Shown here: piece after piece, positions 13,755-32,013 of the stretch | Numbering within the stretch: the stretch's first letter is position 1 | Layout of the letters: each line of letters opens with the position of its first letter | Source of the DNA: an uncultured Flavobacteriaceae bacterium | Lineage (GTDB): Bacteria > Bacteroidota > Bacteroidia > Flavobacteriales > Flavobacteriaceae | NCBI GenBank assembly: GCA_947497145.1 | Contig: CANMFQ010000036.1 | Span: forward strand, 1-32,645 | DNA: 32,645 nucleotides | Direction of reading: 5' to 3' | Notes under the pieces: generated by a model | The model's database searches: none | What the model was told of the DNA's origin: nothing | The model's input: the letters and a program-made list of their open reading frames with translations, nothing else | Translations under genes and position numbers: made by a program

Positions 13755-15446
13755 ATGCAATTGTCAGAACAAGAAATCGTACGAAGAGAGAAATTAGCAA
13801 AATTACGCGAAATGGGTATTGACCCGTATCCTGCAGCCTTATACCCTGTAGACGCTACTGCAACAAGCATAAAGAACAATTACGAAGAAGGAAAAAAGGT
13901 CGTAGTTTCTGGTAGGCTTATGTCGAGAAGAATTCAAGGTAAGGCCTCCTTTGCAGAATTGCAAGATAGCTCTGGGCGTATTCAAGTATATTTTAATCGT
14001 GATGAAATATGTACAGGAGAAGACAAGACCTTATATAATGATGTATATAAAAAATTACTAGATATTGGTGATATCATAGGAATTGAAGGCGAATTATTTA
14101 CCACACAAGTAGGTGAAAAAACCATTATGGTTAAAAATTTCACCGTCTTATGTAAAACACTACGCCCTTTACCATTACCAAAAAAGGATGCCGATGGTAA
14201 TATCTATGATGAGTTTAATGACCCAGAAATGCGCTATCGTCAACGTTATGTTGATTTGGTGGTAAACCCATCAGTAAAAGAAACCTTTATAAAACGAACG
14301 AAAATCACCAATAGCATTCGCCAGTTTTATAACGAACGTGGATATTTAGAAGTAGAAACACCAATTCTTCAGCCAATTCCGGGTGGCGCGGCAGCACGTC
14401 CGTTTTTAACGCACCACAATGCTTTAAATATTCCGTTGTATCTACGAATTGCCAATGAATTATATCTTAAAAGATTGATTGTAGGTGGGTTTGATGGTGT
14501 TTATGAATTTTCAAAAGATTTCAGAAATGAAGGCATGGACCGCACCCACAACCCAGAATTTACAGTTATGGAACTGTATGTTGCCTACAAAGATTACAAT
14601 TGGATGATGGACACTACCGAAGCCCTTTTAGAAAAAGTGGCTATTGATGCAAACGGCACTTCAAAGGTAACGGTAGGTGACAATGAAATAGAGTTTAAAG
14701 CGCCATATGCTCGTGTACCTATTTTAGAAGCTATCAAAATTCATACAGGTGTTGATGTTGCCGGAATGGACGAAGTAGAACTTAGGGAAACCGCAAAAAA
14801 ATTAGGATTAGAAGTTGATGAAACAATGGGCATTGGTAAGCTTATTGACGAAATCTTTGGTGAAAAATGTGAGCACTTTTACATACAGCCTACCTTTATT
14901 ACAGACTACCCTAAAGAAATGAGTCCTTTAACCAAGGCACATAGAGACAACCCTGCTTTAACCGAGCGTTTTGAGCTAATGGTAAATGGCAAAGAACTGG
15001 CTAACTGCTATTCTGAGTTGAATGACCCTATTGACCAACGAGAGCGCTTTGAAGAGCAACTACGTCTTTCAGAAAAAGGAGATGATGAAGCAATGTTTAT
15101 AGATCAAGACTTTTTGAGAGCTTTAGAATATGGTATGCCTCCTACATCAGGTATTGGTATTGGTATTGATCGTTTGGTGATGCTACTCACCAATAACGCT
15201 TCTATTCAAGAGGTATTATTCTTTCCGCAGATGCGACCCGAGAAAAAAGCTGTTGAATTATCAGAAGAAGAAAAAGGCATCATTGCCATTTTAAAACCTG
15301 TTGGCAATATGGAATTGAGTACCCTGAAAGCTCAGGCAGCGCTTAGCGGAAAAAAATGGGATAAGGCGATGAAATCACTATCTAATCATAAATTGGTAAA
15401 AGTAAACAAAACGGATGATGGGCTTTTTGCATCATTAATTTCATAA
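13755..15446 (+). CDS. lysS: Lysyl-tRNA synthetase, class II
   Basis: A 563-residue class II LysRS charging tRNA-Lys with lysine in the cytoplasm. The N-terminal OB-fold anticodon-binding domain spans about 35-150 ([23 protein letters not shown]). The catalytic domain follows: motif 1 around [20 protein letters not shown], motif 2 [15 protein letters not shown], and motif 3 [25 protein letters not shown] is the usual lysine-pocket segment. Beyond motif 3 there is a C-terminal extension of about 70 residues (from [13 protein letters not shown] to ASLIS) that is typical of Bacteroidetes LysRS and resembles a small winged-helix unit. The start is fixed by the strong promoter 17 bases upstream and the conserved [20 protein letters not shown] terminus. 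Confidence 0.97.
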
Positions 15447-15522: not shown

Positions 15523-15573
15523 TCATAGTTAGAATTATTACTATTTTTCAAATTGAAACAATCCTAACTATGA
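15523..15573 (+). promoter_or_regulatory. 10-bp inverted repeat enclosing the start codon of the GH95-like gene
   Basis: TCATAGTTAG (15523-15532) and CTAACTATGA (15564-15573) are perfect inverted repeats with a 31-base AT-rich spacer. The right arm contains the ATG (15570-15572). If transcription starts upstream of the left arm, the hairpin would bury the start codon. If it starts within the spacer, the repeat could instead be an operator. Confidence 0.4.
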
Positions 15574-17864
15574 AAAACCTGTTCGCCCTACTAGCCTTCG
15601 TACTTATTTCAAATGCCGTTTGCAGCCAAAAACTCCCTGAATTAATTGCCTCACCTCATGATTTACATTTTAACAATCTTGCCAACACTTGGGATGAAGC
15701 AATCCCCTTAGGCAATGGTATGGTTGGTGCCTTAGTTTGGAAAAAGGAAGAAAAACTCCGCCTCTCACTAGATCGCGCAGACATTTGGGATTTACGTCCT
15801 ATGGAAAACCTAAAAACTCCGCAATGGAAATATAGCTGGGTATACGAACAATGGAAAAAAGACACCTATACTAACGTTCAAAAGAGATTTGACGAACCTT
15901 ATGATAAAATACCCGCCCCGTCAAAAATACCCGGTGCAGCCCTAGAATTTGATATTGCTGGTTTGGGAGAAATCGCCTCAGTACATTTATACATCAATCA
16001 AGCTATTTGCGAAGTAAAATGGAAGAATGGTGTTCGCTTATTAACCTTTGTTCATGCTACCGATCCTATAGGCTGGTATCATTTTGAAGGACTCGCCAAG
16101 CCTTTATCTTATGAGATAATTCCACCAGCATATAACATTCCTGGAACAAACAAAGAAGAAAGTCCCGTAAAGGGTCAAGATTTACGTAGGCTAGAATACC
16201 CTCAAGGTACGGTAACAAAAAACAAAAATTCAGCCACATACACCCAAGAAGGATGGGGCGGATTTAAGTATGAAGCGCATACCAGTCATAAAACACTACC
16301 TAATGCAATGACAGGTAGCTGGAGTTTAAGTTCTGAATTTCCTTCGTGGGAAAAATCACCTAGCGCTACCACAATAATAAAAAAACAAATGCAAGAAGGT
16401 ATGACCAAAGCATTTGACACGCATGCTACTTGGTGGCGTGACTTTTGGTCTCAATCTGCTATTAGTATCCCTGATGCTACAATAGAAAAACAATGGCATT
16501 TAGAACAATACAAATTTGGTTCCGTTGCACGTTCATCAGGACCTCCTATTTCGTTGCAAGCAGTTTGGACAGCCGACAATGGTAAATTACCACCATGGAA
16601 AGGTGATTTTCACCACGACCTTAACACTCAACTCAGTTACTGGCCTGCCTATAGTGCAAACCACCTTAATGAAGAAATAGGGTTTGTAAACTGGTTATGG
16701 AAATACAGAAACACCTTTAAAAAATATACAGATGAATACTACGAAGCAGAAGGCTTAAACGTGCCTGGCGTAACCACCCTCACAGGTGAACCTATGGGTG
16801 GTTGGATACAATATTCATTCGGCCCCTCAGTTTCTGCTTGGCTCGGACATCATTTTTACTTGCACTGGAAGTACTCTATGGACAGCACTTTTTTAGCCGA
16901 ACGTGCGTACCCATGGATAAAAGATGTGGCTACTTACCTCAATGCAATCACTCAAAAAGATGCCAATGGAAAACGCAAACTCCCCATCAGTTCAAGTCCA
17001 GAAATACATGATAATAGCAAACAAGCGTGGTTTCCGAACACCACTAATTTTGACTTAGGCTTGATAAAATGGACGTATGAAAAGGCTGCAGAACTCGCCG
17101 ATGAATTAGGCAAAAAAGAAGAAGCCAATACATGGAAAAAAATAGCTTCTGAATGGCCGCAACTTGCCAGTAGCGAACAAACAGGACTCATGATTGCACC
17201 AGGAGCTCCTTATGCACAATCGCATCGCCATTTTTCACATCAAATTGCTTATCATCCGCTAGGTATTGTAGACTTTTCTAGAGGAGAACAAGACCAGAAA
17301 ATCATAAAAAATACCATAAGCACCCTAGATAGCATAGGGTCTTCATTATATGTAGGCTATTCTTTTAGCTGGTTGGCTAATTTAAAAGCCCGTGCTTTTG
17401 ATGGTGAAGGAGCCGCAAAAGCTTTGAAAATTTTCGCAACTAGCTTTTGCCTCCCCAATAGCTTTCATGTTAACGGTGATCAATCTGACAACAACTATTC
17501 AAGATATAAATATCGTCCGTTTACCTTAGAAGGAAACTTTGCTTTTGCCGCAGGTTTACAAGAAATGCTTATTCAAAGTCATACTGGCATTCTTCATATT
17601 TTTCCCGCTGTACCAAAAAGCTGGTCTACACCAAGTTTTGACCAACTGCGTGCACAAGGGGCTTTTCTTGTTTCGGCAAGTATGAAAAATGGCGCCACTG
17701 AAAAAGTTAGCATTACATCACTAAAAGGAAGTGTATTAAAACTTAAAAACCCATTTAACACCTCCAATTTTCAGTGTAATATGCCGTATGAATTAAGTGT
17801 CGATAATATTATAACAATTAACACCAAAATGAATGACCAGATTGAACTTTCGTTAAAAAACTAA
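15570..17864 (+). CDS. GH95-like exported glycosidase
   Basis: A 764-residue glycosidase related to family GH95 (alpha-L-fucosidase/alpha-L-galactosidase) with an N-terminal GH65N-type beta domain. I start at ATG 15570, which gives signal peptide MKNLFALLAFVLISNAVCSQ; a longer in-frame version from a TTG codon at 15519 lacks one. The beta domain begins with WDEAIPLGNGMVGALVW (41-57). The (alpha/alpha)6 part has DFHHDLNTQLSYWPAY (346-361), the acid candidate E478 in SSSPEIHDN, and GYSFSWLANLKARAFDGE with D611, the expected base region. The GNFAFAAGLQEMLIQS segment near 655 is also typical. Where characterised GH95 enzymes carry N-x-N, this protein has D350-L-N352, so mechanism or substrate may differ. 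It heads the cytochrome/DUF1501 cluster; a 284-base gap follows. Confidence 0.8.
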   Translation: MKNLFALLAFVLISNAVCSQKLPELIASPHDLHFNNLANTWDEAIPLGNGMVGALVWKKEEKLRLSLDRADIWDLRPMENLKTPQWKYSWVYEQWKKDTYTNVQKRFDEPYDKIPAPSKIPGAALEFDIAGLGEIASVHLYINQAICEVKWKNGVRLLTFVHATDPIGWYHFEGLAKPLSYEIIPPAYNIPGTNKEESPVKGQDLRRLEYPQGTVTKNKNSATYTQEGWGGFKYEAHTSHKTLPNAMTGSWSLSSEFPSWEKSPSATTIIKKQMQEGMTKAFDTHATWWRDFWSQSAISIPDATIEKQWHLEQYKFGSVARSSGPPISLQAVWTADNGKLPPWKGDFHHDLNTQLSYWPAYSANHLNEEIGFVNWLWKYRNTFKKYTDEYYEAEGLNVPGVTTLTGEPMGGWIQYSFGPSVSAWLGHHFYLHWKYSMDSTFLAERAYPWIKDVATYLNAITQKDANGKRKLPISSSPEIHDNSKQAWFPNTTNFDLGLIKWTYEKAAELADELGKKEEANTWKKIASEWPQLASSEQTGLMIAPGAPYAQSHRHFSHQIAYHPLGIVDFSRGEQDQKIIKNTISTLDSIGSSLYVGYSFSWLANLKARAFDGEGAAKALKIFATSFCLPNSFHVNGDQSDNNYSRYKYRPFTLEGNFAFAAGLQEMLIQSHTGILHIFPAVPKSWSTPSFDQLRAQGAFLVSASMKNGATEKVSITSLKGSVLKLKNPFNTSNFQCNMPYELSVDNIITINTKMNDQIELSLKN

Positions 17865-18148
17865 CATAACAATCTGCAATTTCGTTGTGCATTTAACAAA
17901 TTAATTTTGAGTTTGCTTTATATTTTGGATACATTTTAATTTTCTTATATTTATAAATTGAACTCATATTGACTTTTTGTTTGTAACCGATAATTATAGC
18001 TTTTGTGCCGTAATGAAGTTATTTTTGATACATAGCCATAACTACAGTCCTCAAAAATGACATAATTAGGGTGCCAAATGTATACTTTACAGCTAAAGAA
18101 AAAGTCAAGATGAGTTCATTATACCTAATTTTATATGTTAGTTATATC

Positions 18149-20890
18149 ATGAAAAAGAAATTTAAAAAAATAATTCCTTTTTTAGGACTACTATTGTTAC
18201 TTACAATAATCACTAGTTGCTCCTCATCTTCTGAAAAAATAGATTTCAGCACCCAAATCAAACCCATTCTTAACAACAAATGTATCACCTGCCATGGTGG
18301 TGTTAAAAAAAATGGTGGGTTTAGTGTCTTGTTTAAAGAAGAGGCTTTAGCGAATACAAAATCTGGCAAACCTGCAATAATTCCTGGTAATGCTTCTGAA
18401 AGCGAGTTCATTAAAAGGCTACATGAAGAAGACCCCGAACTTCGCATGCCCTATGAAAAACCAAAATTATCAGACGAAGAAATTGATTTATTGACTCGTT
18501 GGATAGACCAAGGAGCAGAATGGGGTAACCATTGGGCTTATTCTTTACCCGAAAAGGTTGATGTTCCCGCTTTTACGCAAGAAGCTGGTTTTGATATCAA
18601 TACTGCTACTCCCTTTATTCAAAACAATATTGATAATTTTATTGCAGCACGCTTAAAAAGTGAGAAACTTACTCCAAATTCACCTGCCGAAAATAACATC
18701 ATATCTCGCAGAGTGGCTTTAGACCTTACTGGCTTACCTCCTGATCAAAAACTACATCAAGCCTTTTTATCGGGAGAAATATCCTATGAAAATTTGGTAG
18801 ATAGCCTCTTGTCAAAAAAAGAATATGGCGAAAAATGGGCTAGTTGGTGGCTAGATATGGCGCGATATTCTGACAGTAAAGGCTATGAAAAAGATCAAGG
18901 TAGAAGTATCTATCAATATCGAGATTGGGTCATTAAAGCACTAAATAAAGACATGCCGTTTGATGAGTTCACTATCACCCAACTCGCTGGCGATTTACTT
19001 CCAGACCCCTCCATAGATCAGCTTATTGCTACCGCCTTTCATCGTAATACCATGAATAATGATGAAGGTGGTACAGATGATGAAGAATATAGAATTGCTG
19101 CAGTCATTGATAGAGTGAACACCACTTTTGAAGTATGGCAAAGCACCGCTATCGGTTGTGTGCAATGTCATGGTCACCCCTATGATCCCTTTAAACATGA
19201 AGAATACTATAAATTAATGGCTTTCTTTAATAATACTAGGGATGAAGATATGCCAAGCGAAGCCCCAGTGCTCAAATTTTATTCACCAGAAGAAGAACAA
19301 AAAATAACGCAGATAAATGATTGGATTCATAAATATGGTGATCAAACCGTTGCAGAACAATACAAAAAGTTCATTCGTTATGCAGAACCAGTTCATAATG
19401 CCCATCACCTAAAAAACATTCAAAATGGTGCTTATGATGATCATGCTTCAACAGTTCTTTGGGATAAAGGCTCTTGTAAATTTGAAAATATCGCTGCCGA
19501 AGGGGCAACTACCCTGCTCTTAAAACATCGATCCGCTATTGACGGCACTACCATCACCTTTAAAAAGAATAATGCTGAAGGCGAAGTTTTAGCTCAAACT
19601 ACGATAAACAAAACAAGGGGAAGTTATATTCTAAAAATACCTTTTAAACCTGTTGATGGTCGTTTTGATCTGTACATTGAAACCAATAACAACAGCGTTG
19701 CCAAAGAGGTAAATGTAATTAATTTGTATTGGGTAGCGCTATTACAAGATTTGCCAGGAAAAGATCAAAACGGTTATGCAGCTATCAACAAAACATTGAC
19801 AAACATCTTAAACACCAATACGCCAACGGTACCCATTATGGTTGAGAACCCAGCGTTTATGAAGCGCACTACACAAGTGTTTGAACGTGGTAACTGGCTC
19901 ACAAAAACAGACACCGTACAACCAGAAACGCCAAAAACACTGAACCCATGGGAAGCTGAATGGCCAAAAAACAGATTGGGACTTTCAAAATGGTTGGTGA
20001 GCAAAAAAAATCCGTTAACGGCAAGAACCATGGTTAACCGTGTATGGCACCAAATTTTTGGTCGTGGTTTTGTGGCTTCTATTGAAGATATTGGTTCGCA
20101 ATCTGATGCTCCATCACACCCAGCCTTGCTAGATTGGCTGGCTCTTCGGTTTATGAATGAGCATAACTGGAGTATTAAAGCTTTGGTAAAAGAAATTGTT
20201 ATGTCGGGCACCTACCGTCAAAGTTCTGAAAGCAATGCAGAACTGTACCAAAAAGACCCACATAATGATCTTTATGTCCGAGGTCCGCGGATACGCTTGA
20301 GTGCAGAACAAATAAGAGATCAAGCTTTAGCAGTTGCCGATTTATTAAGTCCAAAAATGTACGGCCCCGGGGTAATGCCTCCGCAACCAGAAGGTGTTTG
20401 GCAAACCGTTTATAGTGGTGAAAAATGGATTGAAAGCAAGGGTGAAGACCGCTATAGAAGAGCCGTTTACACCTATATGAAACGCACCAGCCCCTACCCT
20501 TCTTTTATTACTTTTGATGGTGGTAGTAGAGAAGTATGTTTAATACGTAGAACGGTTACCAATACGCCTTTACAAGCTTTAGTTACTCTCAATGACCCTG
20601 TATTTTTAGAAGCTGCACTTGCACTGGCAAAAAACCAACAGCTTGCTACAAACGTTGATCAAAGTATTGCCAACATATATGAGAAAGCTACCTATACCAA
20701 AATAACTCCAGCGAAACTAGCGGCTTTAAAAAACCTCTATAACAATGCGTATGATGAATTTAAAAATGATGAAGAAACCACAGCAAAACCCTTTTTTCAT
20801 CTCAAAAAGAAGCCATCAACAGAACTGGCAGCGTTAACTATTGTAGCCAATGCGATTATGAACCTAGATGAATTTTTAAGCAAAGCGTAA
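18149..20890 (+). CDS. PSCyt1-PSCyt2-PSD1 (DUF1549/DUF1553) cytochrome lipoprotein
   Basis: A 913-residue envelope protein of the type abundant in planctomycetes. I start at ATG 18149 because it gives a lipoprotein signal (IITS-C24); an in-frame ATG at 18071 would add 26 non-signal residues. PSCyt1 (about 33-125) carries haem-c site CITCH (45-49) and likely axial M100 (ELRMPYEKP). PSCyt2/DUF1549 (about 160-375) has RRVALDLTGLPP, WWLDMARYSDSKGYEKD and a second CxxCH, CVQCH (337-341). PSD1/DUF1553 occupies the C-terminal third, with GLSKWLVSKKNPLTARTMVNRVW and GTYRQSS. It probably moves electrons in the periplasm; the reaction of the DUF1549/1553 parts is unknown. It is two bases from the DUF1501 gene, its usual partner. 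Confidence 0.92.
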   Translation: MKKKFKKIIPFLGLLLLLTIITSCSSSSEKIDFSTQIKPILNNKCITCHGGVKKNGGFSVLFKEEALANTKSGKPAIIPGNASESEFIKRLHEEDPELRMPYEKPKLSDEEIDLLTRWIDQGAEWGNHWAYSLPEKVDVPAFTQEAGFDINTATPFIQNNIDNFIAARLKSEKLTPNSPAENNIISRRVALDLTGLPPDQKLHQAFLSGEISYENLVDSLLSKKEYGEKWASWWLDMARYSDSKGYEKDQGRSIYQYRDWVIKALNKDMPFDEFTITQLAGDLLPDPSIDQLIATAFHRNTMNNDEGGTDDEEYRIAAVIDRVNTTFEVWQSTAIGCVQCHGHPYDPFKHEEYYKLMAFFNNTRDEDMPSEAPVLKFYSPEEEQKITQINDWIHKYGDQTVAEQYKKFIRYAEPVHNAHHLKNIQNGAYDDHASTVLWDKGSCKFENIAAEGATTLLLKHRSAIDGTTITFKKNNAEGEVLAQTTINKTRGSYILKIPFKPVDGRFDLYIETNNNSVAKEVNVINLYWVALLQDLPGKDQNGYAAINKTLTNILNTNTPTVPIMVENPAFMKRTTQVFERGNWLTKTDTVQPETPKTLNPWEAEWPKNRLGLSKWLVSKKNPLTARTMVNRVWHQIFGRGFVASIEDIGSQSDAPSHPALLDWLALRFMNEHNWSIKALVKEIVMSGTYRQSSESNAELYQKDPHNDLYVRGPRIRLSAEQIRDQALAVADLLSPKMYGPGVMPPQPEGVWQTVYSGEKWIESKGEDRYRRAVYTYMKRTSPYPSFITFDGGSREVCLIRRTVTNTPLQALVTLNDPVFLEAALALAKNQQLATNVDQSIANIYEKATYTKITPAKLAALKNLYNNAYDEFKNDEETTAKPFFHLKKKPSTELAALTIVANAIMNLDEFLSKA

Positions 20891-20892
20891 TT

Positions 20893-22401
20893 ATGGACAA
20901 TCTAGAAACACTTATACAAGAATATTTACAACGAGAAGCACAGGCCAAAACGCGAAGGCATTTTATTAAAAATTGCGCTAGTGGCTTGGGTGGACTGGCT
21001 TTAAGTTCCATATTTATGGGCTGTGACCCATTGTCAACGCAAAAGAAAAAAGCCAAAATCACTTTTTCTGAACGAGATTTAAACCCCCTTGCTACTTTAG
21101 CACCTCCATTGAGCCCCAAAGTAAAATCGGTGATTTATTTGCATATGGCTGGGGCACCTTCGCAACTAGAAATGTTTGACTACAAGCCTGTTTTACAAAA
21201 ACTACATGGCAAGGATTGTCCGCAGTCACTTTTAGAAGGTAGAAAATTTGCGTTCATTAAGGGAACACCAAAACTTCTTGGACCGCAAGCGGAATTCAAA
21301 CAAGAAGGAGAATCAGGCAATTGGGTTTCAAATTTCTTACCTCATTTTAAAAAGGTGGTAGATGAAGTGGCTTTTGTTAAAGCAGTTCATACAGACCAAT
21401 TTAATCATGGGCCAGCTCAGTTATTCATGCATACGGGTAGCGCCCGTTTAGGCAGGCCTAGTATTGGTGCTTGGGCTACCTATGGTCTAGGATCAGAAAA
21501 TCAAAACCTACCCGGATTTGTAGTTTTAACCTCTGGAGGGAACACCCCCGATGCTGGAAAAAGTGTTTGGGGCAGTGGTTTTTTACCGTCGGTATATCAA
21601 GGTGTTCAATGCCGCTCTAAAGGAGATCCCGTTTTATATATTGAAGACCCCGATGGTATTTCAAGAAATTTAAAAAAGAGCACTATTGATGCGATTAACA
21701 AAATAAATAAAGAAGAATATGCCAAATATGCAGATCCTGAAATTTTAGCCCGTATCAATCAATATGAAATGGCGTATCGTATGCAAATTGCTGTTCCTGA
21801 AGTTATGAACATCAATAATGAACCCGAAAATATAAAACAAATGTATGGGGTAGAACCCGGTAAAGAATCCTTTGCCAATAACTGCCTTTTAGCCCGCAAA
21901 CTGGTAGAAGACGGCGTTCGCTTTGTACAGCTTTTTGATTGGGGATGGGATACACACGGTAATATTCGTGAAGGATCTATTGATTTGGGACTCCGAAACA
22001 AATGTCGTGAGATTGACCGTCCAATTACGGCCTTAATTCTCGACTTAAAACAACGCGGATTATTAGACGAGACCCTTATCGTTTGGGGAGGTGAATTTGG
22101 GCGTACGCCAATGCAAGAAAATAGAGGAAATAAAAAAATGGCTTACCTAGGACGCGATCACCATGGCGATGCTTTTACCATGTGGATGGCAGGCGGAGGC
22201 ATCAAAAAAGGGGCCTCACACGGGCAAACTGATGAGATTGGTTTCTCTGGTGTTGAAGGTCAAGTTTCTGTTCATGACATACATGCTACCATTTTACATC
22301 TGCTAGGCTTTAACCATGAAGAATTTACATTCGATTTTCAAGGAAGACCATTCAGGTTGACCGATGTGGAAGGGGAAATTATTAAAGATATTTTAGCTTA
22401 A
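20893..22401 (+). CDS. DUF1501 protein, Tat-exported
   Basis: A 502-residue DUF1501 protein, a family in the alkaline phosphatase/sulfatase superfamily with no established reaction. A Tat motif TRRHFIK (20-26) precedes a hydrophobic stretch and IFMG-C44, so it may be a Tat-exported lipoprotein. Family segments are VIYLHMAGAPSQLEMFDYKP near 80, VRFVQLFDWGWDTHGN near 345, LIVWGGEFGRTPMQ near 397, and GRDHHGDAFTMWMAGGG near 420; the Asp/His residues in them fit metal ligands of the superfamily. The gene begins two bases after the DUF1553 gene stops, so the two are co-translated. The pair is a standard planctomycete and verrucomicrobial module. Confidence 0.93.
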   Translation: MDNLETLIQEYLQREAQAKTRRHFIKNCASGLGGLALSSIFMGCDPLSTQKKKAKITFSERDLNPLATLAPPLSPKVKSVIYLHMAGAPSQLEMFDYKPVLQKLHGKDCPQSLLEGRKFAFIKGTPKLLGPQAEFKQEGESGNWVSNFLPHFKKVVDEVAFVKAVHTDQFNHGPAQLFMHTGSARLGRPSIGAWATYGLGSENQNLPGFVVLTSGGNTPDAGKSVWGSGFLPSVYQGVQCRSKGDPVLYIEDPDGISRNLKKSTIDAINKINKEEYAKYADPEILARINQYEMAYRMQIAVPEVMNINNEPENIKQMYGVEPGKESFANNCLLARKLVEDGVRFVQLFDWGWDTHGNIREGSIDLGLRNKCREIDRPITALILDLKQRGLLDETLIVWGGEFGRTPMQENRGNKKMAYLGRDHHGDAFTMWMAGGGIKKGASHGQTDEIGFSGVEGQVSVHDIHATILHLLGFNHEEFTFDFQGRPFRLTDVEGEIIKDILA

Positions 22402-22470
22402 AATACCGCTTAGGATATCAAAAAAAACAATGCGACACAGTACAAATGCTTTATAAAACCAAACCTACAA

Positions 22471-23346
22471 ATGACCAGATTACTCATTGTCCTATTTTTC
22501 ACTTCCCTATATAGTTTTTCGCAAGAGAACAACTTACAATTCTTCAATACCGACTGGGGTAGAACCGTATCTTGGGATGCTTTCTGCGAACGTACGAAGG
22601 CGGCTGGTTATGATGGTATAGAAATTTGGTTTCCCTCAGATGTTGAAAGTCAAAAACAACTAAAAGTAGCTCTTGACAAATACAATTTAAAAGTTGGTTT
22701 TTTAAACGGCACCAATAAATCGCTACCTTTTAATGAGAGTTTGAAAGCGTATACTGAACATTTCAAAACCCTTTTGTCTTGGAATCCTGCGTATATAAAT
22801 TGCCACACAGGGAGTGATTTTTTCACTACTACACAAAATAAAGCGTTTATAGAAGCGGCTAACAAAATAGCTAAAGAAAGTGGCACCCCCATTTATCATG
22901 AAACCCACCGTGGTCGGTTTAGTTTTAATTTGCCCGATACAAAAACTTACTTGGCTGCTATTCCTGATTTAAAACTCAATCTAGACATTAGTCATTGGAT
23001 GGTAGTTCATGAATCGCTCTTAGAAAATCAAGATAAAGAACTAGAAGAAATCATCAATAGATCATACCACATTCATGCTCGCGTTGGTCATGCAGAAGGG
23101 CCACAGGTGAATGACCCTGAAGCTCCAGAATGGCGAAAAGCCGTAGACAGGCATCTTGATATTTGGGAAAAAATCATTCGAACCAAATGGGCACAAAGCC
23201 AAACTCCTTTTACTATTACAGCCGAGTTTGGCCCACCTGATTACATGCCTACACTACCCTACACCAAAGTTCCCGTTGCGGATCAATGGAAGGCAAATGT
23301 TTTTATCATGGAAGCGATTAAAAAAAGAATGAAGATTAAAAATTAA
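22471..23346 (+). CDS. Exported sugar isomerase/epimerase-like TIM-barrel protein
   Basis: A 291-residue xylose-isomerase-like TIM barrel (AP endonuclease 2 superfamily) with a signal peptide (1-18, FFTSLYSFSQ). Most relatives are cytoplasmic sugar isomerases or epimerases; this one is exported. Likely metal ligands lie at the expected strand ends: E144 (YHETHRGR), D172 and H175 (LNLDISHW), H200/H202 (YHIHARVGHAEG) and E252 (TAEFGPPDYMP). Exported TIM barrels of this kind occur with periplasmic sugar-oxidation genes in Bacteroidetes, for example around 3-keto-glycoside metabolism, but neither a DUF1080 hydrolase nor a Gfo/Idh oxidoreductase is present here. It is 69 bases behind DUF1501 and nine bases before the next gene. 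Confidence 0.88.
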   Translation: MTRLLIVLFFTSLYSFSQENNLQFFNTDWGRTVSWDAFCERTKAAGYDGIEIWFPSDVESQKQLKVALDKYNLKVGFLNGTNKSLPFNESLKAYTEHFKTLLSWNPAYINCHTGSDFFTTTQNKAFIEAANKIAKESGTPIYHETHRGRFSFNLPDTKTYLAAIPDLKLNLDISHWMVVHESLLENQDKELEEIINRSYHIHARVGHAEGPQVNDPEAPEWRKAVDRHLDIWEKIIRTKWAQSQTPFTITAEFGPPDYMPTLPYTKVPVADQWKANVFIMEAIKKRMKIKN

Positions 23347-23355
23347 CGGTTTTAT

Positions 23356-24750
23356 ATGGATGTTCTAAAACAACTCTTGGGTAGGTTACACCCCCTATTT
23401 GTTCACCTTCCCATTGGCTTTATCATTCTTGGCTTGCTCATTAAATGGTATGACCGTAAAAAAAATGCCCATACAGACTTACTCCCCCTAATTTTTCTTT
23501 GGGCAGGATACAGCGCGGTGCTAGCATGCATAACAGGATATGCCCAGTACATTGGTGAAGGTTATGCCTTTGAAACGGTAAAAATCCATTTATGGGTAGG
23601 TATTGCGACAGCAGTTTTTTCCTTTATAATGTATGCCAAATTAAAAGAATTAAAAGCCGTTGCTTTTCTTTCTAAAGTTTCTATTACTGTATTATCTGTG
23701 GTGTCTTTTATATTAATTTCATTCACAGGACATGAAGGCGGTACTATTACCCACGGCGAAGATTATTTGATTGAACCGCTTCCAAATTCTGTAAAATCGG
23801 CGCTAGGCTTTGAAACCTATGAGGAGAAAGACATTGTGCTTACTGATGAAAATTGGCAAGAAGCCCAATTGTATGAAGATGTAATAAAACCCATTTTGAA
23901 CAATAAGTGTATCAGTTGCCATAACCCCAAAAAATCAAAAGGAGGTTTACTATTACACTCAGAAGAAGCTATTTTGAAAGGTGGTGAAAACGGGCCTGTA
24001 ATCACCGCTAATAAGGCTTCTGAAAGCGAACTATTCACCCGTATGAAACTACCCAAAGAAGATGATAACCATATGCCTCCCGAAGGCAAGTCGCAACCTT
24101 CAAAAGAAGAGATTACCCTCATAGGTGCTTGGATAGATGCTGGGCATCCATTTGACAAATCAATTGGTGAGCTGAATCTTAAAAAAAACCTTTTCCTTCC
24201 TTTTATACCTAAAAAGGCAGCTAATAATTATCCTGATATTGAAATTACAGCAGCATCAGCCGACAGTATAAAAGCTATTGAAAAAACAGGAGTTCACGTA
24301 GATTTGATCAGTAAATCTTCTAATTTCTTAACTGTTTCGTGTATTAACAAGCCTGCTTTTACAAATGCTGATTTCGATGCTTTACTTCCTATAAAATCTC
24401 AAATTGCTGTTCTTGATTTGGGGGGTACAAAAATCACTGATGCTATTGTAGAAAAACTACCCATGCTAACTAATTTAACCGTTCTAAAACTAGACAACAC
24501 CCAAATAACGGGCGAAAACATAGAAAAACTAGATGGCTTAGCACATTTAAAAAGTCTCAATGTAACGTACACCAACTTTGCAAAAGAGCACCTGACCAAA
24601 CTTGCTAATTTTAAAAAGCTAGAAAAAGTGTATGTTTACAACACCCCCATAAACGCAACAGATAGTACTTTTTTAAAAGGAAGTGACATTCATATCGATT
24701 ACGGTAATTATCAATTGCCACAAATAGCGGCAGATACTATTGTGTATTAA
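23356..24750 (+). CDS. DUF2231 - cytochrome c (PSCyt1) - leucine-rich-repeat membrane protein
   Basis: A 464-residue fusion. Residues 1-125 are a four-helix membrane domain of the DUF2231 type (LGRLHPLFVHLPIGF), with histidines H12, H17, H78 and H126 that could bind haem b. Residues about 170-270 are a PSCyt1-type domain with haem-c site CISCH (185-189) and likely axial M240 (DNHMPPEGK); it closely matches the first domain of the DUF1553 lipoprotein (IKPILNNKCI is shared). Residues about 345-450 are leucine-rich repeats (IAVLDLGGTKITDAIVEKL, LTVLKLDNTQI, LKSLNVTYTNF). It looks like the membrane electron entry point of the cluster, with the repeats as a docking surface. Only nine bases separate it from the TIM-barrel gene. 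Confidence 0.88.
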   Translation: MDVLKQLLGRLHPLFVHLPIGFIILGLLIKWYDRKKNAHTDLLPLIFLWAGYSAVLACITGYAQYIGEGYAFETVKIHLWVGIATAVFSFIMYAKLKELKAVAFLSKVSITVLSVVSFILISFTGHEGGTITHGEDYLIEPLPNSVKSALGFETYEEKDIVLTDENWQEAQLYEDVIKPILNNKCISCHNPKKSKGGLLLHSEEAILKGGENGPVITANKASESELFTRMKLPKEDDNHMPPEGKSQPSKEEITLIGAWIDAGHPFDKSIGELNLKKNLFLPFIPKKAANNYPDIEITAASADSIKAIEKTGVHVDLISKSSNFLTVSCINKPAFTNADFDALLPIKSQIAVLDLGGTKITDAIVEKLPMLTNLTVLKLDNTQITGENIEKLDGLAHLKSLNVTYTNFAKEHLTKLANFKKLEKVYVYNTPINATDSTFLKGSDIHIDYGNYQLPQIAADTIVY

Positions 24751-24799
24751 TTTTAATAGCAACGAAAAATAACATAGCTTAGAGCTTCTAATTAAAACT

Positions 24800-26230
24800 A
24801 TGCATTACAGTAGCAAATTGGGTTTGTTTTTAGGCCCTATCTTATTTCTTATTCTTATAAACCTTCCGCTTGAAATTGTTTCAGAACAGGGAGATGCCGT
24901 AATAGCCGTTGCCCTATGGATGGTTATTTGGTGGATTACCGATGCTGTTTCTATATCTGTAACGGCATTGCTTCCATTAATTCTCTTTCCTTTACTAAAA
25001 ATAATGCCCATAGCCGAGGTTGGTTCCAATTATGGTAGTCCTATAATATTCTTATTTTTTGGCGGCTTTGTAATGGCATTAGCATTGGAAAAAGTGAGTC
25101 TCCATAAACGCATTGCCTTAAACATCATTAAAATTACAGGTACTACCCCAAACAAGGTGGTCTTAGGCTTTATGATTGCTACCGCTTCTCTAAGCATGTG
25201 GATCAGTAATACGGCGAGTACCGTAGTTATGCTCCCCATTGCCATGTCGGTAATTAGCTTATTAATTGATGACAAAGACGGCTTTACCAAAAGTGACCAG
25301 AATTTTGCCTTGTGTGTGATGTTGGGTATTGCCTTCTCTGCCAACGCTGGTGGAATTGCAACCGTTATAGGAACACCGCCAAATTCAGTGATGATAGGTT
25401 TGCTGGAAAATGAATATAATATTCAAATTTCTTTTTTAAAATGGATGGTTATAGGCGTTCCTTTTTCAGCCATTATGATTGTACTAAGTTATTTGGTTTT
25501 AGTGAAATTGATGTTTCCCAATAAACAACATGCCTTTACAGCCAGTAAAAACGTTATTAGTGATGAATTAAAAAAACTGGGGCCAATGAGTGGTAAAGAA
25601 AAGATGGTTTTACGCATTTTTGCAATTACCGTTTTCTTATGGATTTTCAGAACATTAATCAACAGCCTATTCCCCAATTTAGGGCTCTCTGATACCATCA
25701 TAAGTATCTTTGCAGCTATTTCATTGTTTGCAATTCCTTACAATTTAAAAAAAGGAGATTTTATTCTCATTTGGGAAGACACCTCAAAACTAGCATGGGG
25801 TATCTTAATTCTATTCGGTGGAGGGCTAGCTCTTGCAAAAGGCATGTCAGTAAGTGGGATTGTTGATGTGGTAACAAATGCCATTGCTGCCAGTGATATT
25901 AGTGTCTTATTTACCGCATCACTACTTATTATTTTAATGCTATTTATGACAGAATTAATGAGCAATGTAGCACTAATTGCCGTATTAGCACCGGTAGTTG
26001 CTGGTATTGCTATTGGTTTAAAAATACCAATACTGTATTTATTAATACCCGTTACCATGGCTAGCAGTTGCGCCTTTATGCTGCCTATGGCTACGCCACC
26101 TAATGCCATTGTATTTGCCAGCGGCTATATAAAAGTACATCAAATGGTACGTGCGGGCATATTATTAAATCTCATTGCTGTTGCCCTTCTTATTGTATTA
26201 TTTCAATTTATCATCCCATTATTATTTTAA
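24800..26230 (+). CDS. DASS/SLC13-family sodium:carboxylate or sulfate symporter
   Basis: A 476-residue polytopic inner-membrane transporter of the divalent anion:Na+ symporter family, with 11 or more hydrophobic segments. The first SNT motif is SMWISNTASTVVMLP (132-146). The second half has FMTELMSNVALIAVLAPV in the equivalent position and the family end motif MASSCAFMLPMATPPNAIVFASG. Family members import dicarboxylates, citrate or sulfate. It is 49 bases behind the DUF2231 fusion on the same strand, so it probably carries the acid product or substrate of the cluster across the inner membrane; this role is inferred from position. Its 3' end faces the terminator at 26244-26275. Confidence 0.92.
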   Translation: MHYSSKLGLFLGPILFLILINLPLEIVSEQGDAVIAVALWMVIWWITDAVSISVTALLPLILFPLLKIMPIAEVGSNYGSPIIFLFFGGFVMALALEKVSLHKRIALNIIKITGTTPNKVVLGFMIATASLSMWISNTASTVVMLPIAMSVISLLIDDKDGFTKSDQNFALCVMLGIAFSANAGGIATVIGTPPNSVMIGLLENEYNIQISFLKWMVIGVPFSAIMIVLSYLVLVKLMFPNKQHAFTASKNVISDELKKLGPMSGKEKMVLRIFAITVFLWIFRTLINSLFPNLGLSDTIISIFAAISLFAIPYNLKKGDFILIWEDTSKLAWGILILFGGGLALAKGMSVSGIVDVVTNAIAASDISVLFTASLLIILMLFMTELMSNVALIAVLAPVVAGIAIGLKIPILYLLIPVTMASSCAFMLPMATPPNAIVFASGYIKVHQMVRAGILLNLIAVALLIVLFQFIIPLLF

Positions 26231-27912: not shown

Positions 27913-30900
27913 ATGAAATATTTTTGTCTTAATTTCATTGTTTATGCTTTTATTTTCTGCTGCGCAAATTTTGCTACAGGACAACAACTCCCTACCGAAT
28001 CAGTATTAATCGCTGAAAGCACCAAGGAATTTATAGAAGATTTTGATCGAAAAAAATCTGGCAAAAATACTGGTATCACCATTACATTAACTGAATCAAA
28101 AAGTATTCAACTTCATTTAAACGTAAAAAAACAACAAAATAGAAGTTTAACCTATATCGGTTCTGTAGATGATAAAGAGAGTGCTTCTTTTACTTTCTCA
28201 TATGCTAATGGTAAAATTGAAGGGCATATTATTGAACGGAAAGAAAAGAACGCCTATCGTATTTATACTAATGGTAAAAATGAACTTTTTGCACAAAAAA
28301 TAGATATCAACACCCTTTTGTGTGTTGGTTTTGATCAAATACCAGAATTAACTCTTTCCAAAAAGCGTAAAAGTAGCACACGTAAAGACGCACTGTTAAA
28401 CCTACAAAGTAGACCTAGCGCTACAGCAGTAATTTATCTTGATTTTGATGGGGAAACTGTGAGTGGTACAAGTTGGAATAATGGAAATACCATAAATGCC
28501 GCACCGGTCAACCTATCTGATGACGAAATACGAATTGCTTGGGAGGTTGTCGCAGAAGATTTTAGTCCGTTTAATGTAAACGTTACTACCAACAGGTCGG
28601 TCTTTGACGCAACGCCGAAATACAAAAGAATGATGTGTATTTTTACACCAACAGATACTGCAGCACCTGGAGCTGGAGGTGTAGCACTACTTAATTCATT
28701 TTCTTGGAACAACGACGACCCTTGTTGGGCATATAATATACAAACAGGTAAACACGCTGGTGATACAGCTTCGCATGAAATAGGTCATACTTTAGGGCTA
28801 AATCACGACGGGCAAGGAGCCACCCAATATTACTCGGGACATGGCAACTGGGGGCCGATAATGGGTTTTAGCTTACAGAGACCTGTTGCCCAATGGAGTA
28901 TAGGGGAATATACAAATGCCTCCAATACTGAAAATGATTTACAAATAATAACACGTCCACAGAATAATTTCAGTTTTGTACCTGATGACCATGGCAATAC
29001 CATAAATACAGCAACAACACTTAAGATTACAACATTCGGAAACCTAATTGAATCTGAAAACACCGGTATCATAAGTAGAAATAGTGATATTGATGTATTC
29101 CAATTTTTTGCAAAACAAGGTGGAGCTTCCTTTAATATTAATGCACATGATGTGCATCCAAATCTTGATATTCAAGCGCGATTATTAGATGCTAGTGGCA
29201 ATGAGCTTGTTCGCAGTAACCCTGCCGGATTAAACGCTTCAATAAGTACCACCTTAACCACTGAAGGACTTTATTATTTAGAGATTCAAGGCGTTGGCGC
29301 AGGAACAGTGAATAACGGATATTCTGATTATGCCTCATTGGGTAAATTCACTATTACGGGTAGCTATGTTGCTCAAATACCTGATGATGACATTAAATTA
29401 CTTGCTATTACTCCTGAGGAAGGCAGCCTCATTTGCGGGCAAATCACTCCTACTGCCGTTGTGAAAAATAAAGGCACTAATACGATATCAGATTTTGACA
29501 TCGTATATAGCATCAATAACCAAACACAACAGACAATAGCATTTACAAATACCATAGCCCCCGAAGAAACGCTAACGGTTAACTTACCGCCCATACCCCC
29601 AAACACATCAGGTGTAATGCTTATTAAAATTATTGCTAAAATTGACAATGATGATATTCCTAACAATAACACCTTAGAACAATATTTTTTCACAAATCAT
29701 TCAGGAGTCGCTAATCAAACCAATTCATTTGAAACTGCTAACGATGCACTACTTCATTATAACAATGCGGGTAATACCTCCGTTTGGGAAAGGGGTTCAC
29801 CTTCAGGCACAGTGCTCAACAGCTCAAAAACGGGTCAAAATGCCTATGCCACTAATTTAGATGGCAACTACCCTGATGAGCAACTAAGCTATTTACTAAC
29901 CAATTGCTATGATTTCACCAACATGAATCTGCCTGTTTTAAAATTTGAAATGGCGTATGATTTAGAAGTTAATTTTGATATTATCTATGTTGAATATTCC
30001 CTAGACAGCGGTATTAACTGGAATCTTCTAGGTTCAAAAAATAGCCTTCCAAACTGGTATTCTAGTAATCGTACCAATGCTAGTTCTGGTGAAGCTAATG
30101 ATTGTCATAATTGCCCTGGCGGCCAGTGGACAGGGAGCAATACGCAATTTAACACCTATTCTTATGATTTTACAGCAAACGCCACAACAGAAACTAATTT
30201 AACCCAAGCTGATAATATCATCTTTCGCTTTGTATTTCAATCTGATCAATTAATACACCAAGAAGGTGTGGTCATTGACGATTTTGTAATTGAAGAAACC
30301 CCAATTGATACGGACAATGATGGTGTTGCAGATAGGCTTGACAACTGTCCTACCATAAGCAATGCGAATCAACTAAATACCGATGGTGACGCCATGGGCA
30401 ATGCATGTGACGACGATGACGATAATGATGGCATACCAGATGTCATTGATAATTGCCCCCTAACTAACAATCCAGATCAGGCTGATAGTGATAACGACGG
30501 TATTGGTGATGTTTGTGAAGACCCTAATGATGATGATGGCGACGGTATTTTAGATACTGATGACAACTGCTCAACGGTTGCCAATCCAAACCAAGAAGAC
30601 AGCGATAACGATGGTATTGGAGATGCCTGCGATGACGATGACGACAATGACGGTGTTTCAAACAATATAGATAATTGTGTCACCATGTATAACCCTAATC
30701 AAGAAGATATAGACAATGATGGTATTGGTGATGTTTGTGATAGCGATGATGACGGGGATGGCATTTTAGATGTTAATGACAACTGTTCTATGATAGCCAA
30801 TACCAATCAAGAAGACAGTGATGAAAATGGTATTGGAGATGCTTGTGACAGTACTGCTGGTGATATCGATGGTGATGGCATAACTGATGATATAGACAAT

Positions 30901-32013
30901 TGCCCTATGGCTGCAAACCCAGATCAGGTAGATACCGACAATGATGGGATAGGTGATACCTGTGATACTGATGATGACAATGACACTATTCTTGATATTT
31001 TTGATAACTGCCCTATGATAGCCAATCCCAATCAAGAAGATGCTGATGAAGATAGTATTGGCGATGCTTGTGATAACCTGGCCAATGATTTAGACGGTGA
31101 CGGTATAACTGACAATCTTGATAATTGCCCTATGGTAGCAAATCCAGATCAGGCAGACGCTGATAATGACGGTATAGGTGACATTTGCGATACCGATGAT
31201 GACAATGATACTATTCTTGATATTATTGATAATTGCCCCTTTAATAGTAACCCAGACCAAACGGACACTAATAATAATGGTATCGGAGATGTTTGTGACA
31301 GTAGCCTTTCAATACCAAATTCTAACTATCAGCTAACTTCTTTTATAGCTTGTGATACGCAAAAAGGAAGCATTACTATTAGGGTACAAGAGGCAAATAA
31401 TTACCGTGTTACGCTTACCAGCGATAAAAGTAGTATTGCAAAAAACTTTATTACATCAACAACATTCAACAATTTAGATTTAGGTAAATATACCGCTTGC
31501 TTCACCATTGCTGGCGAAGATGATTACAGGGCATGTTTTGAAATAGCTGTTGAGGCACTTTCTGTAACCACTCATGTGCTTCTAAATAGTAAAACAGTGA
31601 CATTAGCACTAACAGGAGCCAGTCCGTATACCGTTACCTTAAATGGTAACACCCAAATATATAACCAAAAGAACATAAGTTTACCCTTAACGCAATTACG
31701 AAACTCCTTAAAAGTAACCTCTAGCAATACTTGTGAAACAGCCTATGAGCAAGAGGTTTTCTTACCCTCAAAAGTATATATCTATCCTAACCCGGTATAT
31801 GGCGACGAACTTACTATTCTTCTACACAAAGAATATGAAAAAGAAATTGAAGTATCACTTTTTAATATGGACGGGAAACGCACCTCTTCAAAAGACTATA
31901 CTATTGAAAACAATAAAATAAAGATTGATGTACGTGGTTTAGTTCAGGGAGTATACCTACTCAAACTGGTTACTCCCAATGAAACCACTAGTTATAAAAT
32001 TATAAGAAAATAA
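27913..32013 (+). CDS. T9SS-secreted metzincin protease with thrombospondin type-3 repeats
   Basis: A 1,366-residue secreted zinc protease. Residues 1-24 are a signal peptide (FATGQ). A propeptide-like domain covers about 35-130. The reprolysin-like catalytic domain (about 170-350) has the zinc site HEIGHTLGLNHD (288-299; H288, E289, H292, H298) and Met-turn M317 (GPIMG). A pre-peptidase C-terminal-like domain (about 355-485), a CARDB-like domain (about 495-600) and a jelly-roll-like segment (about 610-795) follow. Residues about 797-1130 hold nine thrombospondin type-3 calcium repeats (DNDGIGDxC). A T9SS type A sorting domain (about 1285-1366; VYIYPNPV ... GVYLLKLV) ends the protein. It should be exported by Sec, then T9SS, and stay on the cell surface or be released. 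The next gene is a paralogue. Confidence 0.92.
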   Translation: MKYFCLNFIVYAFIFCCANFATGQQLPTESVLIAESTKEFIEDFDRKKSGKNTGITITLTESKSIQLHLNVKKQQNRSLTYIGSVDDKESASFTFSYANGKIEGHIIERKEKNAYRIYTNGKNELFAQKIDINTLLCVGFDQIPELTLSKKRKSSTRKDALLNLQSRPSATAVIYLDFDGETVSGTSWNNGNTINAAPVNLSDDEIRIAWEVVAEDFSPFNVNVTTNRSVFDATPKYKRMMCIFTPTDTAAPGAGGVALLNSFSWNNDDPCWAYNIQTGKHAGDTASHEIGHTLGLNHDGQGATQYYSGHGNWGPIMGFSLQRPVAQWSIGEYTNASNTENDLQIITRPQNNFSFVPDDHGNTINTATTLKITTFGNLIESENTGIISRNSDIDVFQFFAKQGGASFNINAHDVHPNLDIQARLLDASGNELVRSNPAGLNASISTTLTTEGLYYLEIQGVGAGTVNNGYSDYASLGKFTITGSYVAQIPDDDIKLLAITPEEGSLICGQITPTAVVKNKGTNTISDFDIVYSINNQTQQTIAFTNTIAPEETLTVNLPPIPPNTSGVMLIKIIAKIDNDDIPNNNTLEQYFFTNHSGVANQTNSFETANDALLHYNNAGNTSVWERGSPSGTVLNSSKTGQNAYATNLDGNYPDEQLSYLLTNCYDFTNMNLPVLKFEMAYDLEVNFDIIYVEYSLDSGINWNLLGSKNSLPNWYSSNRTNASSGEANDCHNCPGGQWTGSNTQFNTYSYDFTANATTETNLTQADNIIFRFVFQSDQLIHQEGVVIDDFVIEETPIDTDNDGVADRLDNCPTISNANQLNTDGDAMGNACDDDDDNDGIPDVIDNCPLTNNPDQADSDNDGIGDVCEDPNDDDGDGILDTDDNCSTVANPNQEDSDNDGIGDACDDDDDNDGVSNNIDNCVTMYNPNQEDIDNDGIGDVCDSDDDGDGILDVNDNCSMIANTNQEDSDENGIGDACDSTAGDIDGDGITDDIDNCPMAANPDQVDTDNDGIGDTCDTDDDNDTILDIFDNCPMIANPNQEDADEDSIGDACDNLANDLDGDGITDNLDNCPMVANPDQADADNDGIGDICDTDDDNDTILDIIDNCPFNSNPDQTDTNNNGIGDVCDSSLSIPNSNYQLTSFIACDTQKGSITIRVQEANNYRVTLTSDKSSIAKNFITSTTFNNLDLGKYTACFTIAGEDDYRACFEIAVEALSVTTHVLLNSKTVTLALTGASPYTVTLNGNTQIYNQKNISLPLTQLRNSLKVTSSNTCETAYEQEVFLPSKVYIYPNPVYGDELTILLHKEYEKEIEVSLFNMDGKRTSSKDYTIENNKIKIDVRGLVQGVYLLKLVTPNETTSYKIIRK
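30850..31299 (+). repeat. 225-bp higher-order tandem repeat in the thrombospondin region
   Basis: Two consecutive 75-residue units (residues 980-1054 and 1055-1129), each holding two type-3 repeats, match throughout: DGDGITDDIDNCPMAANPDQ against DGDGITDNLDNCPMVANPDQ, and CDTDDDNDTILDI in both. The array has grown by duplicating a two-repeat block. Confidence 0.8.

Follow-up and report, generated by a model that had tools for sequence, protein, structure and literature searches.

According to the available excerpt of He et al. (2017, PMC5615132), nothing is known of the functions of the planctomycete PSCyt/PSD gene pairs. Rhodopirellula baltica has 41 copies each of the PSC2 and PSD1 domains, as given in an excerpt of PMC2754498. 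No function for DUF1501, PSCyt, DUF1800 or DUF2231-cytochrome proteins was found in the open-licence PubMed Central literature. The subject here is a cassette of such genes in the window, the whole 32,645-nucleotide stretch analysed from an uncultured Flavobacteriaceae bacterium (GenBank assembly GCA_947497145.1, contig CANMFQ010000036.1, positions 1 to 32,645, forward strand). Like the planctomycete pairs as the excerpt describes them (PMC5615132), it has a PSCyt1-PSCyt2-PSD1 protein next to unknown genes of one family, some of which carry carbohydrate-binding modules; unlike them, it adds a DUF2231-cytochrome membrane gene and an optional exported TIM barrel. Like the DUF1501-DUF1800 pairs in the excerpt of PMC5122149, it pairs a twin-arginine translocation (Tat)-exported DUF1501 protein with a fixed partner, and the DUF1501 proteins are homologous (hhalign 93.9%). 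The partners differ: hhalign detected no homology between DUF1800 and the PSCyt-PSD1 protein (probability 0.2%), and that relationship was rejected. In 10 of 11 genus mates (L067-L076), DUF1800 forms a pair with a second protein that has a Tat-like leader; no DUF1800 gene occurs in the genome of the window.

The cassette very probably consists of three core genes, encoding a PSCyt1-DUF1549-DUF1553 protein, a DUF1501 protein and a DUF2231-PSCyt1-leucine-rich repeat (LRR) protein, with an exported TIM barrel as an optional fourth. It is proposed to be a cell-envelope machine that draws electrons from sugars. In the window, the four genes are:

18149-20890, + strand, from ATG: lipoprotein-like PSCyt1-DUF1549(PSCyt2)-DUF1553(PSD1) protein; core (Pfam, motifs, alignment)
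20893-22401, + strand: DUF1501 protein with a twin-arginine-like leader; core (Pfam 502.5 bits)
22471-23346, + strand: exported AP_endonuc_2 TIM barrel; accessory to the core (Pfam 45.9 bits, hydrophobic leader)
23356-24750, + strand: DUF2231-like four-helix membrane domain, then a PSCyt1 haem-c domain, then LRR; core (Pfam, hydropathy)

The reading frame of the first gene is open from a GTG at 18071, upstream of the ATG at 18149.

The order PSCyt-DUF1501-TIM-DUF2231 recurs across Bacteroidota. The TIM protein search gave matches in 30 of 298 family genomes and in 21 of 395 phylum genomes, two samples that overlap. In the family sample, the context of 31 of 33 matches was examined (the two left out have an in-frame stop and lie close to contig ends), and all 19 new matches of the phylum sample were taken into the comparison; 20-kb surroundings were compared for 49 TIM matches and the window. 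The order was found in 28 loci (the window and 27 of the 49) from four families. Of the 27 others, 21 belong to the same family; the remaining six are spread over three families, two in the same class and one in a different class. By genome, the cassette occurs in 22/298 and 9/395 of the two samples, and genus mates add four further cassettes, one of them cut by a contig end. Because the four-gene order recurs in 28 loci, the inner grouping exceeds chance. The sequence-only reading had grouped the exported TIM barrel with the cytochrome-DUF1501 module and the DUF2231-cytochrome protein, and this grouping is upheld. One scan of genome contigs returned a single locus. One cassette (L047:2-7570) contains a tandem pair of PSCyt-PSD1 genes and a canonical GH95 gene.

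All three domains of the PSCyt protein lie in one polypeptide (Pfam scores: PSD1 308.1, PSCyt2 251.6 and PSCyt1 54.8 bits) with two haem-c motifs, CITCH and CVQCH. The residues C45/C48/H49/M100 and C337/C340/H341/H343 are invariant in 19 aligned proteins, and a lipobox, LTIITSC, was judged by eye. The DUF1501 protein scores above the PF07394 cut-off; its leader is of twin-arginine type, with R21, R22 and F24 invariant in 20 aligned proteins, as are D353, H355, E401, H424 and D447. The third core protein has PSCyt1 (53.1 bits) and LRR_4 (28.1 bits) domains, a haem-c motif (CISCH) and, by hydropathy, four hydrophobic stretches. Its membrane domain is called DUF2231-like because its Pfam score lies under the PF09990 cut-off (18.2 vs 26.4 bits); a fused paralogue of the same genome passes that cut-off (39.7 bits). 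The domain assignments of the sequence-only reading were reproduced by Pfam and NCBIfam except for DUF2231, though the aligned histidines are conserved: H12, H17, H78, H126 and H133 are invariant in 14 proteins. Judging by hydropathy, they may lie on the same side of the membrane as the following haem-c domain.

The window's own genome repeats the association. All nine of its DUF1501 genes adjoin a DUF1549/1553 partner, and a DUF2231-like gene follows in the window, L009, L010 and L012. A natural fusion, DUF2231-PSCyt1-DUF1549-DUF1553, lies beside a divergent DUF1501 gene (L015:13708-16542, own genome, C4); this fusion ties the membrane and PSCyt parts together.

A different function for the DUF1501 protein has to be weighed here. 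It could belong to the alkaline-phosphatase/sulfatase superfamily and hydrolyse glycan esters, with the haem proteins devoted to redox sensing, to the handling of peroxide or to some unrelated part of respiration. The DUF1501 profile has ten listed structures, every one a sulfatase or a lipoteichoic acid synthase and none of them significant (E 0.17-0.92), and some DUF1501 genes have sulfatase genes nearby. Against it, no residue could be identified as the nucleophile; every DUF1501 gene of the genome has a haem-bearing partner beside it, and the pairing of DUF1501 with DUF1800 in other bacteria, seen here in relatives, is a further counterargument. To our knowledge, no haem motif has been described for DUF1800. 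The hydrolase explanation is considered somewhat unlikely.

The link to carbohydrates comes from domains in related proteins and from neighbouring genes. Laminin_G_3 occurs in 4/19 PSCyt proteins and CBM_6 in 3/19. Neighbours of the other DUF1501 genes of the genome include sulfatases, an L-rhamnose mutarotase (27 bases away), GSDH-cytochrome c, CBM9 and DctP. Together with the fusion, these relatives and neighbours fit the carbohydrate and electron-transfer themes that had been read from the sequence. A non-sugar substrate (e.g. aromatic, lipid or metal), with the nearby carbohydrate genes being incidental in polysaccharide-degrading Bacteroidota, is unlikely. It would accord with the position of most Flavobacteriaceae cassettes, at lysS and not in a polysaccharide locus, and with hydrazine synthase and the iron oxidase FoxE as the best structural matches of the PSCyt1 domain. 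Those matches, however, span the generic cytochrome domain only, and the binding modules inside relatives, the mutarotase and glycosidases beside some of these, and the sugar-catabolism contexts of TIM homologues all point to saccharides.

The preferred reading is a membrane-anchored c-type-cytochrome module for saccharide oxidation, with the TIM barrel acting on the oxidised product. It is given somewhat less than an even chance: gene order, conservation, haem motifs, leaders, histidines, the fusion and the optional nature of the TIM gene are observed, whereas the oxidation, the electron path and the substrate are all putative. In the periplasm, a saccharide would be bound by the PSCyt lipoprotein and the Tat-exported DUF1501 protein and oxidised there. 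Its electrons would travel via the two PSCyt haem-c groups to the corresponding domain of the DUF2231 protein, whose conserved histidines near the outer face may hand them on to the quinone pool or to a haem b. As a last step, the TIM barrel could isomerise, cleave or hydrate the oxidised sugar. Several results weigh against this proposal. The nearest structural kin of DUF1501, non-significant as they are, are hydrolases. At E 0.1, the PSCyt protein of the window has no match to CBM_6 or Laminin_G_3. In most Flavobacteriaceae loci, where only some neighbours were scanned, the cassette has no recognised glycosidase next to it. Pfam and NCBIfam found no flavin, pyrroloquinoline quinone (PQQ) or other known oxidoreductase domain in the cassette proteins. 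Two structure predictions, each from two sequences, were useless (predicted local distance difference test, pLDDT, 28.1 and 34.2).

Described enzymes that act after sugar oxidation offer a comparison for the TIM barrel. The available excerpt of PMC10628242 describes AtOGE and the CGEs as Mn-dependent 3-keto-glycoside beta-eliminases annotated as sugar phosphate isomerase/epimerase. The metal site of the AtOGE TIM barrel is His132/Asp163/His189/Glu233, with catalytic His134; in CGEs, Glu replaces His132 (PMC10628242, same excerpt). LgdB1/LgdB2 likewise act after sugar oxidation (excerpt of PMC7676230). The window protein has E144-x-H146, D172, H202 and E252, which resembles the OGE/CGE pattern of Glu/His-x-His (strand 5) plus Asp, His and Glu (strands 6-8). 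Unlike these enzymes and LgdB1/LgdB2 in the excerpts, it is an exported protein that has haem proteins as partners in place of NAD or flavin enzymes.

The window TIM protein exceeds the PF01261 cut-off (31.1 bits) and keeps the metal-site residues of AP_endonuc_2. E144, D172, H202 and E252 are conserved in 49/49 homologues and H146 in 48/49; these 49 alignable proteins are 28 from cassettes and 21 from outside, L056 being left out because it has no usable TIM frame. The protein may be a metal enzyme. Its homology to OGE/CGE is not established, because the profile had no match among solved structures at E 0.01; the best structure at an E cut-off of 10 was D-tagatose 3-epimerase (0.013). The case for a lyase from the E-x-H metal motif is weakened by a control: 7 of the 15 other AP_endonuc_2 proteins of the genome share Glu/His-x-His at the aligned position. 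A more specific proposal is flavin-free oxidation of sugars or glycans. Here the PSCyt/DUF1501 pair would be a new cytochrome-c-linked saccharide dehydrogenase feeding the quinone pool via the DUF2231 cytochrome; the exported TIM barrel would act on keto sugars in the periplasm, as a lyase, hydratase or epimerase, and finish the cut without a classical glycosidase. This version is quite unlikely.

Export of the TIM barrel goes with the cassette. In all 28 cassette TIM proteins, at least 28 residues precede the first conserved tryptophan, and they include a stretch that is hydrophobic or twin-arginine-like. Outside cassettes, 19/21 homologues have 9-17 residues ahead of that tryptophan and 0/21 a clear leader; two of the 21 (L057, L060) have uncertain starts and a longer upstream reading. 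Every leader-bearing TIM protein of the examined set (28) therefore sits in a cassette. Scanned neighbours of the non-cassette homologues include PhyH (three loci), GH2, GH127, GH92, and 2-keto-3-deoxygalactonokinase with KDPG aldolase. In the window's own genome, a leaderless homologue with 37% identity overlaps the end of a PhyH dioxygenase gene (L042, C19); like pairs occur in L041 and L052.

The TIM gene is optional. Algoriphagus L016 has PSCyt-DUF1501-DUF2231 in a genome without a TIM match. Among 20 sampled DASS loci, L102, L103, L106 and L109 are TIM-less cassettes and L110 has PSCyt-DUF1501 only. In a DUF1501 tree that omits four of seven own paralogues, the six TIM-less rows are scattered among TIM-bearing ones; six changes are needed, four of them forced by well-supported branches, and the TIM label is no more clustered than shuffled labels (278/500 as low). 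L102 keeps the last 52 TIM residues (50% identity, E 5e-11), and this remnant shows that the gene was lost there. An earlier, midpoint-rooted tree, in which five of the TIM-less rows were not included, united 28 TIM-linked rows with L016 and the own paralogue L015 (100/100) and left six other own paralogues outside. The TIM barrel as an indispensable part was rejected on the six related loci that lack it.

The genes that flank the cassette are:

13755-15446, + strand: lysS; left border of the cassette site (TIGR00499 612 bits)
15570-17864, + strand, from ATG: divergent GH95-like protein; neighbour, outside the conserved unit (Pfam GH95 catalytic 163.7 bits)
24800-26230, + strand: DASS-family symporter; resident neighbour at the lysS-DASS site (TIGR00785 294.4 bits)

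Six same-strand genes, from the GH95-like gene to the DASS gene, are confirmed by the open reading frames (ORFs) at the positions first reported, each read from its ATG, with intergenic gaps of 284, 2, 69, 9 and 49 bases in order. They had been read as one pathway in which the GH95 enzyme frees a sugar, the TIM barrel isomerises it, the cytochromes oxidise it and the DASS carrier imports an organic acid. The GH95-like gene and the transporter look like neighbours rather than parts.

GH95 is an alpha-L-fucosidase/galactosidase family. Its catalytic residues are an Asn/Asp pair and an acid Glu. The window protein has both the catalytic and the C-terminal GH95 domain above the Pfam cut-off, and its best structure is BH0842 (8.7e-40), but it scores low against the 602.5 bits of the canonical GH95 of L047. 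Relative to L047, it has LEGNF for IDGNF (Asp to Glu) and D-L-N for N-I-N (first Asn to Asp); the SPE glutamate E478 and N352 are kept. The gene gave 14 matches in 12/298 genomes (at most three candidates per genome scored). It adjoins a cassette at 2 of these 14 places, the window and G222/L018 (70% identity), a count of TIM-bearing cassettes; any TIM-less ones at the GH95-like gene of G115, G142, G225 or G257 would fall outside it. Elsewhere it lies near a leaderless TIM homologue (G212/L041), and the other matches are on separate contigs, far from the TIM match or in genomes without one. In three genus mates, PSCyt follows lysS after 68, 79 and 89 bases, and the GH95-like gene is absent from the junction. 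On these grounds the gene was rejected as a fixed part; it is a late neighbour of the cassette. The canonical GH95 gene of L047 stands between PSCyt and DUF1501, and two glycoamylase-type genes lie ahead of the cassette in L050. Different glycosidase-like genes thus adjoin cassettes, so the glycan connection recurs and is not tied to one enzyme.

The DASS (SLC13-like) protein exceeds its TIGR00785 cut-off (198.6 bits), matches Pfam Na_sulph_symp (250.2 bits) and is close to the NaDC1/NaDC3/VcINDY structures, with nothing unusual. The cassette is seated between lysS and DASS in many Flavobacteriaceae: lysS is upstream of 15/27 other TIM cassettes, and DASS is beside 15/28 (one with an ORF between) and not beside 13/28. 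DASS orthologues of at least 57% identity occur in 80/298 genomes, and 15 adjoin a TIM cassette (at most five candidates per genome scored; the 80 were counted by hand, and 45 of them lie outside the context examination). Among 20 sampled non-TIM DASS loci, lysS and DASS occur together without a cassette in 14, as immediate neighbours in nine and separated by one or two ORFs in five; the other six are four TIM-less cassettes with DUF2231, one partial cassette and one elsewhere. In genome G075, a cassette lies at another place without DASS (L027) and lysS-DASS is intact (L114). DASS adjoins the cassette because lysS-DASS is a resident site, and DASS as a pathway part was rejected on the 14 cassette-free loci. 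These are L095-L101, L104, L105, L107, L108, L111, L112 and L114; across Flavobacteriaceae, the site is empty or filled with varying cassettes.

A six-gene operon is accordingly very unlikely. The window genes are adjacent and on the same strand, and GH95-type genes do recur near the cassette or TIM homologues at L018, L047 and L041; the rarity of the GH95-like gene, the independence of DASS and the loss of TIM in six loci speak against it. From these three distributions, the glycosidase-to-import pathway is not what the comparison conserves. Conservation beyond close relatives, expected for the whole set, holds for the inner four genes across four families and fails for the GH95-like gene.

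Promoter scans neither support nor refute a single transcript. A sigma-70-like scan gave 33 sites vs 35.2 expected, which is background. The Bacteroidetes-type scan of the window gave 4 vs 3.9 expected, 0/4 of them in lysS-to-DASS intergenic gaps, and the terminator scan stayed at background level. G+C is slightly raised in the cassette (38-41% in the PSCyt, DUF1501 and TIM genes vs 35% for the rest), with no clear sign of recent transfer. A Pfam scan of 18 window proteins gave no SusD family match, so the window does not qualify as a polysaccharide utilisation locus, which is marked by a SusC/SusD pair; a TonB-plug receptor lies 8 kb away on the opposite strand. At 27913-32013, the window also encodes a large protein unrelated to the cassette; it carries nine thrombospondin type 3 repeats and a C-terminal secretion sorting domain, and it matches reprolysin weakly.

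PSCyt and DUF1501 genes occur in very large numbers in Planctomycetes and their relatives, and their function was not found in the literature searched. The cassette described here is compact. One of its proteins is a putative electron acceptor in the membrane, two of its parts are naturally fused in one case, its exported enzyme is optional, and natural strains exist that have or lack each part. This makes the system testable in cultivable Flavobacteriaceae.

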